DNA of 57,421 nt from Clostridiales bacterium (GTDB taxonomy: Bacteria; Bacillota; Clostridia; Oscillospirales; Ruminococcaceae): contig JAAYSD010000109.1 in the NCBI GenBank assembly GCA_012518465.1, positions 1 through 57,421 of the forward strand. The letters run 5' to 3'. Positions within the stretch are counted from its first letter, which is position 1. The number at the start of each line of letters is the position of its first letter. This document shows, in pieces, positions 24,101 to 28,675 of the stretch. The translations under genes and the position numbers were made by a program. The notes below the pieces were generated by a model, which saw only the letters and a list, made by a program, of their open reading frames with translations, was not told the origin of the DNA and did not search any database.

Positions 24101-25354
24101 ATGAAAAAACCATTTGTTACAAAAGGACAACTTGATGAAATCGTAAAAAATCATCCTACCCCTTTTCATATCTATGATGAAAAAGGTATAAGGGAAAACG
24201 CAAGAAAGCTGCAAAAAGCATTTTCATGGAACAAGGGATTTAAGGAATACTTTGCTGTAAAAGCTACGCCTAACCCATATATAATGAAAATTTTAAAAGA
24301 AGAAGGCTGTGGATTCGACTGCTCATCCTATGCTGAGCTTGTTTTATCTGATAAGGTGGGTGCAAAAGGTGATGAAATCATGTTTTCATCAAACGCAACA
24401 CCCGATATTGATTTTATAAAAGCACATGAGCTTAATGCAGTGATAAATCTCGATGATTTTACACATATTGAAGTTATAGACAAGCTTTTTGGTATACCAG
24501 AAACTATTTCGTGCCGATATAATCCGGGTGGCGAATTTAAAACCTCGGAAAAAGGAAATGTAATGGATACCCCCAGTGATGCTAAATACGGATTTACTCA
24601 TGAGCAAATTATTGAAAGCTATAAAGTTTTAAAAGAAAAGGGCGCTAAGCGCTTTGGTATGCACGCATTCCTAGCTAGCAATACCCTTACTAATGATTAT
24701 TATCCTGTTTTAGCTGGGATAATGTTTAAGGCGGCTGTTGAGATAAAAGAAAAAACCGGCGTTAGCATCAATTTCATTAATCTTTCTGGTGGAGTTGGTA
24801 TTCCTTACAAGCCCGACCAAAAGCCAAATGATATTGAAGTTATTGGCAAAAAGGTAAAAGAACAATTTGAAAAAATCCTTGTTCCAGCTGGACTTGGAGA
24901 TATTGAAATTTATACAGAGCTGGGACGCTATATGCTTGCTCCATATGGTGCTTTAGTATCTACTGCCATTCGTGAAAAGCATATTTACAAGGAATACATT
25001 GGGCTTGACGCTTGTGCGGCAAACCTTATGCGTCCTGCTATGTATGGCTCTTATCATCACATTACAGTAAGTGGAAAGGAAAATTTACCCTGCGACCATA
25101 AATATGATGTGACAGGCGGTCTTTGCGAAAACAACGATAAATTTGCAATAGATAGAATGCTGCCAAAGATAGATATTGGCGATTATATTATCATTCACGA
25201 TACTGGAGCGCACGGTCACTCCATGGGATATAATTATAATGGCAAGCTGCGTTCTGCCGAGCTGTTACTCAAGGAAAATGGTCAAGTAGAGGAAATAAGG
25301 AGAGCAGAAACACTTGATGATTATTTTGCTACCTTAGATTTTTCTAAGCTATAA
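24101..25354 (+). CDS. lysA: Diaminopimelate decarboxylase
   Basis: 417-residue PLP enzyme of the alanine racemase fold (type III decarboxylases), making L-lysine from meso-diaminopimelate. Schiff-base lysine Lys54 in YFAVKATPNP, then GFDCSSYAEL, the phosphate-binding NLSGGVGIPY, ELGRYMLAPYG, and the dimer-partner Cys in GGLCENNDKF. The family has close relatives such as carboxynorspermidine decarboxylase, so lysine synthesis is likely but not certain. ATG at 24101, 7 bases after AAAGG; an in-frame TTG two codons earlier lies in the spacer. Confidence 0.87.
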   Translation: MKKPFVTKGQLDEIVKNHPTPFHIYDEKGIRENARKLQKAFSWNKGFKEYFAVKATPNPYIMKILKEEGCGFDCSSYAELVLSDKVGAKGDEIMFSSNATPDIDFIKAHELNAVINLDDFTHIEVIDKLFGIPETISCRYNPGGEFKTSEKGNVMDTPSDAKYGFTHEQIIESYKVLKEKGAKRFGMHAFLASNTLTNDYYPVLAGIMFKAAVEIKEKTGVSINFINLSGGVGIPYKPDQKPNDIEVIGKKVKEQFEKILVPAGLGDIEIYTELGRYMLAPYGALVSTAIREKHIYKEYIGLDACAANLMRPAMYGSYHHITVSGKENLPCDHKYDVTGGLCENNDKFAIDRMLPKIDIGDYIIIHDTGAHGHSMGYNYNGKLRSAELLLKENGQVEEIRRAETLDDYFATLDFSKL

Positions 25355-25389
25355 ACAAAAGAATTATAAATAAACTAGCACAGGTCGTT

Positions 25390-25451
25390 TAACAAAAGTT
25401 ATGCATAAGCATAGCTTTTGTTATAATGCCCTAAAACATAATGCTTTAGGG
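25390..25451 (+). promoter_or_regulatory. Two stacked hairpins before the DUF1538 gene
   Basis: Hairpin 1: 15-bp stem (25390-25404 with 25409-25423, one G-U pair), loop ATAA; it may end lysA transcription but lacks a T-run. Hairpin 2: CCCTAAA (25429-25435) with TTTAGGG (25445-25451), whose right arm contains part of the AGGGGG ribosome binding site of the next gene. A TATAAT (25422-25427) with a poor -35 (TTATGC, 25399-25404) sits between. Confidence 0.6.
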
Positions 25452-25459
25452 GGTTTTAT

Positions 25460-26974
25460 ATGAATATTTTAAAAGAAAATATCCGAAATAATACAATGGC
25501 AGTTTTACCTATAACTATTTTTGTTACAATTCTTCACTTTACATTTGCACCTGTTGAAACAAATGATTTGTTAAGATTTTTTATAGGTTCAGTTTTAATT
25601 ATATTTGGACTTTCTATTTTTTTAGTAGGAGCTGAAATTGGTGTAATTCCTTTAGGCTCACAGACTGGTGCTTCACTTGCTAAGTCAAACAGCTTAAAGC
25701 TTGTAATAATTTTTGGTATAATATTGGGATTTTTTATTTCCGTATCCGAGCCTAGCCTTGTTGTTTTAGCCGAACAAGTCCAATCAATAACATCTGGTAA
25801 AATCCATTGGCTGTTTTTAATGATAGTTGTAGCAGGTGGACTTTCAATAATGGTTTCATTAGGTTTTATGCGTATTTTTTATAAAGTACCGTTATATAAG
25901 TTTTTTTTAGTGCTTTATCCATTCATTGCTTTGCTTTCACTTTTTTCTTCAAAAGAATATCTAGCAATTGCCTTTGATGCATCGGGTGCTACTACTGGTG
26001 TTATATCAATACCTTTTATTATGGCTCTTTCCTCTGGTATTTCAGCTTTAAAAAAAGATGGAAAGGATTCTGAAAAGGATAGCTTTGGCTTGGTCGCAAT
26101 AGCCTCAAGCGGTGCTATTATCTCTGTACTAATACTGGGACTTTTTAGTTCTGATAATAACTTTAATACAGAAATAACAGTATCAGAGGATATAAATCAA
26201 TCTCTTCTTTCTCCCTTTGCTAACATTTTTAAAAGCTCATTGGTTTCTAGCCTTATTGCTTTAGTTGCATTATCGATTATTCTAACAATTTTACAATCCT
26301 TTTTACTAAAATTAAACAAACGTATGTTCTTTAGGACTATCAAAGGTTTTATATATACCTTTTTAGGAATGCTCTTATTTTTAATGGGTGTTAATGGTGG
26401 ATTTATGGAAGTAGGTATGCAAATCGGCAAAAAACTTGCAGAAGCTGATAATGTTATACCTTTAATAATTTTTTCTTTTATATTAGGTGTTGTAACTATA
26501 TTGGCTGAACCTGCTGTATATATATTAACTAATCAGGTTGAAGATGTTACAAGTGGATATGTAAAAAAAATTGAGGTTCTTATTCCTTTAACAATAGGTG
26601 TGGGAATGGCAGTAGTTCTATCAATAGTAAGAATGCTAATACCAGGATTACAATTATGGCATTATTTGCTGCCCGGTTATGCGATTTGTTTAATATTAAT
26701 GTTTATTGTGCCAAAATTATTTGTAGGAATTGCATTTGACTCCGGTGGAGTTGCTACCGGTCCTATGACTACAACTTTTATATTCGCCTTTACTCAAGGT
26801 GCTGTGCAAGGTACACCAAATGCGGATATAATGGCAGATGGATTTGGACTTATCGCTATGATTGCTTTGATGCCAATCATTACATTACAAATCCTCGGGC
26901 TAATAGTTAAAATAAAATCTGCAAAAAAAGAAAAAATGAATAAAAAATCTATCAAGGAGGGGGAAAATGGATAG
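25460..26974 (+). CDS. DUF1538 integral membrane protein (internally duplicated)
   Basis: 504 residues with about 12 hydrophobic segments arranged as two similar halves (about 10-235 and 265-485). Each half repeats the pattern LIxxGxxxFLxGAExGVxPLG / LLFLMGVNGGFMEVGMQIG, a central VSEPSLVVLAEQVQSITSG / AEPAVYILTNQVEDVTSG, and AFDASGATTGVISIPFIMA / AFDSGGVATGPMTTTFIFA. The inverted or parallel duplication looks like a transporter fold. Biochemical function is unknown. It overlaps the PII-like gene by 8 bases (coupled), so the two act together, as noted for other DUF1538 loci. Confidence 0.83.
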   Translation: MNILKENIRNNTMAVLPITIFVTILHFTFAPVETNDLLRFFIGSVLIIFGLSIFLVGAEIGVIPLGSQTGASLAKSNSLKLVIIFGIILGFFISVSEPSLVVLAEQVQSITSGKIHWLFLMIVVAGGLSIMVSLGFMRIFYKVPLYKFFLVLYPFIALLSLFSSKEYLAIAFDASGATTGVISIPFIMALSSGISALKKDGKDSEKDSFGLVAIASSGAIISVLILGLFSSDNNFNTEITVSEDINQSLLSPFANIFKSSLVSSLIALVALSIILTILQSFLLKLNKRMFFRTIKGFIYTFLGMLLFLMGVNGGFMEVGMQIGKKLAEADNVIPLIIFSFILGVVTILAEPAVYILTNQVEDVTSGYVKKIEVLIPLTIGVGMAVVLSIVRMLIPGLQLWHYLLPGYAICLILMFIVPKLFVGIAFDSGGVATGPMTTTFIFAFTQGAVQGTPNADIMADGFGLIAMIALMPIITLQILGLIVKIKSAKKEKMNKKSIKEGENG

Positions 26975-27623
26975 CACGGATAATTTATGCTACAAGCTTT
27001 TAGTGACAGTATCAAATTACGGAAAAGGAAGTTTTGTTTTAAAGACTGTCCGTTCAGATAATATTGACGGAGGAATAATCTTTTTAGGAAAAGGCACAGC
27101 ACGCAACAAGCTGCTGCAATTTTTAGAGCTAAGTGATATTAGAAAAGAAGTTGTTCTAATGATGGGAAAGGATAATGATATTGATAATGCCGCTCTGCAT
27201 TTGCACAAGGCGCTGCATATGTCATCGCCTAATAGTGCTATTGCATTTTCTATGAGGCTTTCCGATTTTATTGCTAAGGATAATTCCTGCGAAAATAACA
27301 CAGCTAAGGAGGAAGAATATATGTACAAGTCAGTTTTTATTGTCGTTGATAAGGGCAAGGGTGATGATGCTGTTGACATAGCAGTTAATGCAGGTGCTAA
27401 GGGTGCTACTATTTTTAATGCAAGAGGTGGTTCTGCTGCTGAGGCTATTAAAGTTTTTAACATTGATATAGAGCCGGAAAAAGAAGTTGTTTTAATAGTT
27501 GCTGATAATAATCTAACTAAAGAAATTATTTCAGCAGTTAATAAGGAGCTTAGTATTGAACAAAATGGCACTGGCATAGTATTTACTATGAATGTTGATA
27601 AAGTATATGGTATGATTGAATAG
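26967..27623 (+). CDS. Double PII-like signalling protein partner of the DUF1538 protein
   Basis: 218 residues. The C-terminal half (about 118-218) is PII/GlnB-like: a beta strand YKSVFIVVDKGKGDDAVDIA, GAKGATIFNARGG at the T-loop base, EKEVVLIVAD, and NGTGIVFTMNVDKVYGM at the B/C-loop end. The N-terminal half (about 8-105) repeats the fold loosely: YKLLVTVSNYGKG, GGIIFLGKGTA, RKEVVLMMGK. So it is a tandem pseudo-dimer of ferredoxin-like PII units. PII proteins sense ATP/ADP/2-oxoglutarate or other small molecules and gate transporters; overlap with the DUF1538 gene suggests the same role here. Ligand unknown. Confidence 0.8.
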   Translation: MDSTDNLCYKLLVTVSNYGKGSFVLKTVRSDNIDGGIIFLGKGTARNKLLQFLELSDIRKEVVLMMGKDNDIDNAALHLHKALHMSSPNSAIAFSMRLSDFIAKDNSCENNTAKEEEYMYKSVFIVVDKGKGDDAVDIAVNAGAKGATIFNARGGSAAEAIKVFNIDIEPEKEVVLIVADNNLTKEIISAVNKELSIEQNGTGIVFTMNVDKVYGMIE

Positions 27624-27637
27624 TTTAGAGCCTGAAT

Positions 27638-27675
27638 AAAAACCCTCCACCGATATAGATTGGTGGAGGGTTTTT
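27638..27675. terminator. Bidirectional terminator between the PII-like gene and sleB
   Basis: 14-bp perfect stem (27638-27651 with 27662-27675), 10-base loop, A5 on the left and T5 on the right, GC core CCCTCCACC. Confidence 0.93.
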
Positions 27676-27692
27676 ATATAATTTTTAATATT

Positions 27693-28433
27693 TTAAGAGC
27701 AGAATAAATGCTCACCAATTCTTTTAATAACCGGTCTTGATCTTATCCAAGCATTGCTTGTTTTATCGGGATTATAATAATAGATTGCTCCACCGCTAGG
27801 GTCAGAGCCAGAAAGAGCCTCTCTGGCAGCTGTATAAGCAGAATCAGCTACGGGCTCGTTAAACTGTCCGTCAGTAATAGCCGTAAATGCTCCACTCTGA
27901 TAAATCACACCACTTAAAGTATCTGGAAATGAGGGATGTTCAATTCTATTTAATATTACAGCACCAATAGCAACTTGGCCTACATATGGCTCTCCCCTTC
28001 CCTCAGCCGATATAATTCTTGCTAATAAATTTACATTTGCAGTAGTAGCACTTGGTGCTTCTCCTATGCTTATTCCTAAAAGCTTTAATGTTTGCGTGCC
28101 TGCTATACCTGTTACTGGCAAGCCTCTATATCTCTGAAAGCGTTTTACAGCCTCCTGTGTTATCGTACCATAATACCCAGTAACCGGTCCGTCAAAAAGC
28201 CCCCAATCACGTAAGGTTCTTTGTATTGCCTCAACTTCTTTTCCTCGTGAGCCTATTGAAGAAACCACTTCCTTAGCATTTGAATTCATTTGCTGATCGG
28301 GTTGTTTTATTATTTGAAAAATCCCTACTATAAATAACAGTATCATTGTTACTGTCATTGCAGTAGTAATAAAGCTTTTTAAATATGTTTTTTCAATTTT
28401 TATATCTTTAAAAAATGTCATAACCTTTTCCAT
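27693..28433 (-). CDS. sleB: Spore cortex-lytic enzyme SleB-like cell-wall hydrolase
   Basis: 246 residues: an N-terminal membrane anchor or signal segment (about 22-43), a peptidoglycan-binding PG_binding_1 repeat (about 67-122; IQRTLRDWGLFDGPVTGYYG), and a Hydrolase_2 catalytic domain (about 132-246) with IISAEGRGEPYVGQVAIGAV containing the catalytic Glu, ILNRIEHPSFP, and YYNP. SleB is a lytic transglycosylase that degrades the spore cortex during germination; related SleB-domain enzymes act in vegetative wall turnover. Location next to spoIIA agrees with sporulation. AAGGAG precedes the ATG. Confidence 0.86.
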   Translation of the reverse strand: MEKVMTFFKDIKIEKTYLKSFITTAMTVTMILLFIVGIFQIIKQPDQQMNSNAKEVVSSIGSRGKEVEAIQRTLRDWGLFDGPVTGYYGTITQEAVKRFQRYRGLPVTGIAGTQTLKLLGISIGEAPSATTANVNLLARIISAEGRGEPYVGQVAIGAVILNRIEHPSFPDTLSGVIYQSGAFTAITDGQFNEPVADSAYTAAREALSGSDPSGGAIYYYNPDKTSNAWIRSRPVIKRIGEHLFCS

Positions 28434-28675
28434 TTGTTTTTCTCCTTATTAATTTGTTAAAATTATTAGCTAAAAAAGTATTTATATACATATTGGATAA
28501 TTTTACATTATACTTATTGTTTAATATAATTAATTTATTCTTTTTGTAAATAATTTTTGCTGCTAACCTCTGTTGTTTTGACAAAATTATTAGGACAAGC
28601 TTGATATTATTATATTATATGGTTAATATAATGGTTTTATAAATTTTTATCATAAAAAAGTAAGGAGGTCAATAT

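Follow-up and report, generated by a model that had tools for sequence, protein, structure and literature searches.

DUF1538 membrane proteins and their PII-like partners: a probable antiporter and regulator pair in a Ruminococcaceae operon

We analysed a two-gene operon in a 57,421-nucleotide contig of a Clostridiales bacterium of the Ruminococcaceae (JAAYSD010000109.1, assembly GCA_012518465.1); this whole stretch is called the window below, and all positions refer to it. The operon probably encodes a monovalent cation/proton antiporter of the UmpAB type, belonging to the DUF1538 family, together with its own PII-like regulator. A broader proposal is put forward with less confidence: DUF1538 may be a family of antiparallel cation/proton antiporters derived from dual-topology proteins and gated by PII-like proteins, in which duplication and fusion of the regulator followed those of its target, each PII unit reading one face of the transporter by means of a non-classical ligand. 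The first gene (25460-26974, forward strand) encodes a fused DUF1538 membrane protein of 504 residues with two PF07556 stretches and similarity to UmpA and UmpB, and the second (26967-27623, same strand) a tandem PII-like protein of 218 residues. A first-pass annotation of this DNA, made from the sequence, had described a duplicated membrane protein overlapping by 8 bases a protein made of two PII-like units; both open reading frames and the shared bases (26967-26974) were confirmed. The strong Shine-Dalgarno sequence of the PII gene, AAGGAGGGGG (26954-26963, forward strand), lies within the upstream reading frame, an arrangement consistent with translational coupling. The assembly (1.83 Mb, 120 contigs) contains one DUF1538 gene.

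The membrane protein scored 427.9 bits against PF07556 (DUF1538), for which the Pfam gathering score is 22.6 (E 7e-129). The first unit (about residues 1-235; 25460-26164, with the PF07556 match at 25511-26146) contains the conserved residues E97, D173 and D207 and is predicted from its charge bias to have its N terminus inside, and the second (about residues 251-504; 26210-26971, match at 26276-26905) contains E350, D427 and D460 and is predicted to be inverted. Hydropathy and a structural model gave seven hydrophobic segments per unit, and seven helices per protein were likewise predicted for the Halomonas relatives (PMC5484666). Among 26 aligned proteins, the membrane acidic residues E97/E350 and D173/D427 were invariant or nearly so.

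The family had been taken as one of unknown function, which is outdated, since Na+(Li+,K+)/H+ antiport has been published for a DUF1538 pair (PMC5484666). According to the available text of that paper, UmpAB of Halomonas zhaodongensis confers salt and alkali tolerance on Escherichia coli KNabc, exchanges Na+, Li+ and K+ for H+ in vesicle assays, and consists of two proteins that co-precipitate (PMC5484666). DUF1538 also stands in a list of families linked to pH adaptation (PMC13255231). UmpAB shares with the window pair the Pfam family, two homologous seven-helix units that work together and overlapping genes (PMC5484666), but it consists of two separate proteins whereas the window encodes one fused chain. 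The terms PII, P-II, topology, antiparallel and dual do not occur in the main text of that paper (PMC5484666). The NCBIfam equivalogs for UmpA and UmpB were matched below their cut-offs (NF041627, 169.2 of 490 bits; NF041628, 145.5 of 500 bits), and because these scores are far below the cut-offs, we call the window protein UmpAB-like rather than UmpAB.

The second protein was resolved into two PII-like units. The C-terminal unit (about residues 119-218, 27321-27620, forward strand) passed the PF00543 cut-off (E 7e-7) and carries a T-loop-like stretch, RGG...VFNIDIEPEKE, that is conserved in the family. The N-terminal unit (about residues 1-102, 26967-27272, forward strand) had no Pfam match on its own; it was recognised by profile comparison, by its relatives, by its predicted fold and by structural matches. 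Profiles of the two halves drawn from 50-odd relatives matched each other with an hhalign probability of 99.1 (E 6e-19), the first PII unit was over the PF00543 cut-off in all four scanned relatives with two separate PII genes, and the N halves of three tandem relatives reached 24.3, 13.3 and 12.8 bits (cut-off 25). An AlphaFold2 model of the tandem protein, built on two sequences, had a mean predicted local distance difference test score (pLDDT) of 68.4 and a predicted template modelling score of 0.67, with the PII order of strands and helices in both halves. Solved PII, GlnK, CPII and SbtB chains were among the Foldseek matches (E 2e-4 to 6e-4), ranking behind other two-domain proteins. VIA-align superposed model residues 4-100 on the PII-like structure 2cz4 (Z 7.3, root mean square deviation 3.2, 85 aligned) and residues 6-104 on SbtB 6mmo (Z 7.2, deviation 3.1, 86 aligned), both outranked by unrelated ferredoxin-like proteins (RND pump and aldoxime dehydratase matches, Z 7.8-10.4). 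A profile of 39 tandem proteins matched solved PII chains through its C half (positions 129-226; best 9p1x, E 3e-6). The tandem of two PII-like units claimed earlier is upheld by these data, and the structure prediction that had been suggested as a check recovered a PII fold in both halves.

We then looked at whether relatives keep the pair. Of 197 genomes drawn from the same family, 59 had a DUF1538 gene, and the matching loci were taken with the exception of one short piece; in a draw over the phylum, 101 of 299 genomes had a DUF1538 match, and 60 loci were chosen among the best matches listed, which is not a random sample. The regions read (60 from the family, the window, a locus found by protein search, L007, and 60 from the phylum) held 125 DUF1538 operons, three of which end at a contig edge (L052, L066 and L093). 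A PII-like gene followed directly downstream on the same strand in 119 of the 122 operons with readable downstream DNA, and was also the next gene in all five of five further loci with a lone DUF1538 gene. The intergenic gap was at most 20 bases in 102 of the 119 pairs, 69 of which overlap, start codons having been set mechanically. Beyond the phylum, sampling was limited to plasmid records, which are the source of the Alphaproteobacteria mentioned here. The nine records of the plasmid collection that matched the membrane protein were the same nine that matched the PII protein, at adjoining coordinates; the partner was annotated as 'P-II family nitrogen regulator' in the five records examined, and three of the nine were alphaproteobacterial (Methylocystis rosea twice, and Chelativorans). 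The two alphaproteobacterial records examined had two DUF1538 genes and a single PII gene, the first DUF1538 gene of Chelativorans being annotated with 90 residues. Named relatives with the pair were mostly Clostridia, and in the viral collections we found one DUF1538 gene, cut by a contig end, and no relative of the PII protein.

As expected for a PII-gated transporter, the PII gene adjoins that of its putative transporter and runs in the same direction; most of the pairs overlap or are separated by no more than 20 bases. The first-pass annotation had proposed a dedicated PII-type partner, a claim for which the gene linkage and a PII fold in each half give strong support; absence of linkage in relatives had been named as evidence to the contrary, and in the relatives examined the pairing was kept. 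Among the papers listed in literature searches (titles and abstract openings, mainly of freely accessible papers), none described a DUF1538-PII pairing.

The number of PII units was also found to follow the architecture of the membrane protein. PII units were counted by the length of the reading frame (under or over 190 residues), and DUF1538 was called fused when its reading frame had at least 400 residues; L048 was counted as fused because it reaches this length, though its start is split off. Lone DUF1538 genes had one PII gene in all 12 loci kept. Operons with two DUF1538 genes had one PII gene (9), two separate PII genes (6) or a tandem gene (13), leaving out L057, which reads as two DUF1538 genes and a tandem because a fused gene is probably frameshifted. 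Fused DUF1538 genes followed by PII had a tandem gene in 77 cases, the window included, and two separate PII genes in 4. The fused double PII unit, presented earlier as an oddity, is not peculiar to this locus: two PII units are present in all 81 operons of this architecture. A fused DUF1538 gene with a single PII unit was not seen in the operons read, nor was a lone DUF1538 gene with two PII units in any uncut locus (the fused genes of L092 and L098 are cut by contig ends). Doubling of the sensor seems to have accompanied that of the exchanger.

Charge patterns gave an indication of how the two halves came about. The bias was defined as the number of lysines and arginines in the eight loops (from model and hydropathy), even minus odd. 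It was close to zero in lone DUF1538 proteins (0.08 +/- 1.38, n=12, range -1 to 3). In gene pairs (n=27) it was +4.3 for the first protein (positive in 27 of 27) and -5.7 for the second (negative in 26 of 27, one zero), and in fused proteins (n=83) it was +8.7 for the first half and -5.6 for the second, with the same sign in 83 of 83 for each half. The window protein had values of +9 and -9, and the one complete alphaproteobacterial pair counted had +4 and -3. Aspartates plus glutamates in the same loops were within 1 of zero, except in the second genes of pairs (-2.3), and of 35 possible splits of the loops the alternating four/four split gave the clearest separation of the halves, in pairs as well as in fused proteins. 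Six rows had been dropped from the lone group: L048, L052 and both pieces of L057, which are cut or frameshifted fused genes, L132, which is the second member of a pair in which the other gene had been read too short, and L088, in which the family matches stand in the wrong order and no PII gene is present. Before their removal, and before five further loci were added, the lone group had a mean of -0.62 (n=13, range -8 to 9). On these charge patterns, the two halves are predicted to lie in opposite orientations.

These patterns point to a dual-topology history of the family, from lone genes through antiparallel pairs to a fused inverted repeat. Because the bias is neutral in lone proteins and opposite in pairs and fused halves, we liken DUF1538 to the DUF606 or UPF0016 series. 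In the antiparallel families DUF606, SMR and UPF0016, genes likewise occur singly, as pairs and as fusions, and the bias is neutral, opposite and inverted, respectively (PMC3962082, PMC4067407), and the values for lone DUF1538 resemble those given for EmrE, SugE and CrcB (-2, -1 and 0; PMC3962082). DUF1538 differs from these families in its bigger unit of seven helices and, as far as the available text of those papers goes, in having a soluble partner that also duplicates.

The ATP/2-oxoglutarate site of classical PII proteins involves Arg38, Gln39, Lys58, Lys90, Arg101 and Arg103 (E. coli GlnB numbering), and GlnK is a single unit with such a site. In alignments, with residue roles taken from this general background, the classical residues were missing in PII units of the window type. 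The PII domain fused to Amt in the same genome has the B-loop TGQIGDGKLF and the tail KIRTGE, whereas sole PII units have kPG.GIaF and vaGi.H instead, with a shortened T-loop. At the T-loop position, sole units have their best-conserved stretch (GRGtG-HE..kflgI.Iepe-KE), which downstream units also keep well, and glycines near the nucleotide cleft were also among the most conserved parts of both. Since the classical residues are absent, a non-classical ligand is to be expected, and the ligand is probably not the ATP/2-oxoglutarate pair. A classical GlnB/GlnK ligand site was rejected for the same lack of conservation. The cyclic di-AMP receptor PstA has a PII-like fold, as here, and was also considered; its family (PF06153, CdAMP_rec) was not among the families matched by the window protein at E up to 1, and the genome has a separate PstA (L006), which scores 133 bits.

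We propose the following model. At the origin of the family there would have been a single dual-topology protein and one PII gene; an antiparallel pair and then a fused protein would have followed, while the PII gene would have been duplicated and fused in turn. The PII-like protein would dock on the cytoplasmic face of the antiporter, and a ligand in the PII ring would set the T-loop-like stretch so that the transporter is opened or shut, by analogy with GlnK on AmtB and SbtB on SbtA. Two PII units would be needed in that each could specialise for one cytoplasmic face of the antiparallel transporter; such specialisation would make sense because diverged antiparallel halves show different faces to the cytoplasm. 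We infer all of these steps, and their support falls from the evolutionary series through binding and ligand-set gating to specialisation for two faces; that the PII protein gates the transporter at all is suggested by analogy with these known systems.

The pairing is a variant of the known combinations of a PII protein and a transporter, and its evolutionary series was unexpected. AmtB and, reportedly, SbtA are shut by PII proteins whose T-loop enters the transporter from the cytoplasm (PMC10710835, PMC8352866); light regulation of SbtA in vivo was independent of SbtB according to one later study (PMC8352866). SbtA and SbtB resemble the window pair in that a transporter of two inverted repeats and a PII-like partner are encoded in one operon (PMC8352866). 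They differ from it since SbtB is a single unit that binds AMP and SbtA is a bicarbonate transporter; no solved transporter was recovered as a sequence relative of DUF1538. In the same way, GlnK is encoded beside the transporter that it shuts (PMC10710835), but Amt carries ammonium. Transport of ammonium, nitrate, urea and bicarbonate is named as PII-controlled in a review that, in the text available, lists no cation/proton antiporter (PMC10710835). If the proposal is correct, many bacteria of the phylum of the window, and some Alphaproteobacteria, would couple pH and Na/K balance to metabolic sensing of the PII type through a PII-gated cation/proton antiporter whose soluble regulator has tracked the evolution of inverted-repeat symmetry. 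The lone, paired and fused forms would then provide a large testable set of intermediates for the origin of an inverted-repeat transporter and for the fate of a partner that docks on one side, and the availability of this series makes the pairing easy to test.

Two other PII-type arrangements were noted in the genome of the window. An Amt transporter has a PII domain fused at its C terminus (PF00909 and PF00543; L003, 1471-3156, contig C95), and a PII-like gene of 113 residues (PF00543 E 8.5e-5, just under the cut-off) lies directly upstream of a Na_H_Exchanger gene (PF00999; L005, 110-1629, contig C69). Among 30 same-family loci of this second PII-like gene, its own genome included, the antiporter was downstream on the same strand in 16 and not in 14. 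With two antiporter families having PII-like partners in one genome, a general link between PII sensing and cation/proton exchange is plausible.

Several points weigh against the proposed model or limit it. Gene linkage is not proof of binding, and three operons have no PII gene nearby (L085, L088 and L173). PII control of transporters is apparently restricted to those able to work as trimers, as far as the review consulted goes (PMC10710835), and the cognate PII protein is not needed for UmpAB activity in E. coli, since the clone is described without a PII gene in the text available (PMC5484666). The low equivalog scores mean that the substrate of the window protein may differ from that of UmpAB. 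The dosage rule rests on few independent events: a DUF1538 tree of 90 of the 122 rows, in which same-family rows with a tandem had been thinned, gave two changes of DUF1538 architecture and nine of PII architecture, and the 12 lone genes, which come from five family codes, lie on one side of this tree, with six of them from one genus code and nearly the same loops. With so few events, the rule holds well without being proven by numerous independent origins. For an event-by-event coupling of the duplications, the tree of PII units was poorly resolved (short units, 152 of 222 kept, 103 columns).

Other readings of the pair must be weighed against a PII-gated UmpAB-type antiporter. The PII-like protein could be a soluble sensor that is made with the transporter and reports its ion, pH or energy state to other targets, such as enzymes or transcription, without direct gating. 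Classical PII proteins do have several targets (PMC10710835), and contact between sensor and transporter is itself inferred here; however, transporter and PII protein agree in unit number, and 102 of 119 pairs overlap or are tightly spaced, both of which fit a complex better than a free sensor, and we regard this reading as unlikely. To a similar degree, it is doubtful that the pair handles something other than Na+, K+ and H+, for example ammonium, bicarbonate or an organic ion, with the antiport of UmpAB being a side activity or a speciality of the Halomonas branch. This would accord with the distance of the window protein from the UmpA and UmpB cut-offs, with the substrates of the PII partners named in the review (PMC10710835) and with the lack of a confident structural match for the DUF1538 model, but the conserved membrane acids E97/E350 and D173/D427 fit cation or proton coupling, as do the antiport recorded in vesicles for a DUF1538 pair (PMC5484666) and the place of the family in the pH-adaptation list (PMC13255231).

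A role of the PII-like protein as an assembly or stability factor, that is, a chaperone of the membrane protein that senses nothing, is less probable again. The missing ATP and 2-oxoglutarate residues and a PII copy number that tracks that of the membrane protein would be explained by it, whereas a mere scaffold would not need the T-loop-like stretch and the cleft glycines, which are most conserved in sole and downstream units.

The first-pass annotation had also attached importance to a hairpin covering part of the ribosome binding site of the DUF1538 gene, and had suggested post-transcriptional control. This hairpin (25429-25451, forward strand) exists: its 7-pair stem pairs part of the Shine-Dalgarno sequence, whose predicted pairing in the window was 0.80 against 0.54 in shuffles. 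Its stability was ordinary, however, since the 56-nucleotide stretch folds at -10.6 kcal/mol and 19 of 200 dinucleotide shuffles were as stable (z -1.38). Across 110 loci, pairing of the Shine-Dalgarno region did not exceed that of shuffles (0.52 vs 0.50; 55 of 110 above; Wilcoxon p 0.48). In an Rfam scan of 24300-28500 all families stayed below their gathering scores, and none of the matches listed overlapped the two upstream stems. Furthermore, transcripts begun from a TATAAT at 25422-25427, which was noticed by eye although the scan did not call it, would have their 5' end inside the left arm of the hairpin. It is therefore very improbable that an RNA switch at this hairpin is the main control of the operon. 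The earlier account holds for the gene pair, for the dedicated PII partner and for the presence of the hairpin, but control by it is not supported.

The unusual element of this region is a different stem, immediately upstream of the weak hairpin. The 73-nucleotide stretch that holds both stems had a z of -6.2. The upstream stem is an inverted repeat at 25390-25423 (no strand assigned), with 15-nucleotide arms that are 93% complementary and a 4-nucleotide loop, present as a single copy in the window. It may be the end or terminator of the upstream transcript, or an operator.

Some results on the DUF1538 protein remain to be mentioned. Its structural model was built on three sequences, and a single one of the five models was confident (pLDDT 74.5, against 64.8, 51.4, 39.2 and 37.7). 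No solved relative was found by sequence, solved transporters included, and no confident structural match by model: the best E in Foldseek was 0.05, and the best VIA-align match had a Z of 6.5 over 114 residues. The weak matches of this three-sequence model included NCX, glutamate-transporter and DASS proteins, NCX_Mj having a Z of 5.9 in VIA-align. The protein clusters mostly with other families of the phylum (61% identity to L171 in the second half). Few same-family proteins are near it (L042, L043 and L068, 48-53%), the bulk being at 28-40% over the whole protein, and this grouping gives a hint of transfer from one family to another. A strict pattern detected an acidic-hydrophobic C terminus of the approximate form (D/E)D-x-I-I-(E/D)-(L/F/Y) in 26 of 81 fused DUF1538 proteins, L041, L055, L063 and L076 among them, but not in the window protein; it is a possible candidate for a docking peptide for PII. 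One genome has two DUF1538-DUF1538-PII operons head to tail (L150 and L151). Finally, a terminator-like hairpin of 19 pairs lies 3' of the PII gene of the window (27636-27677, forward strand).

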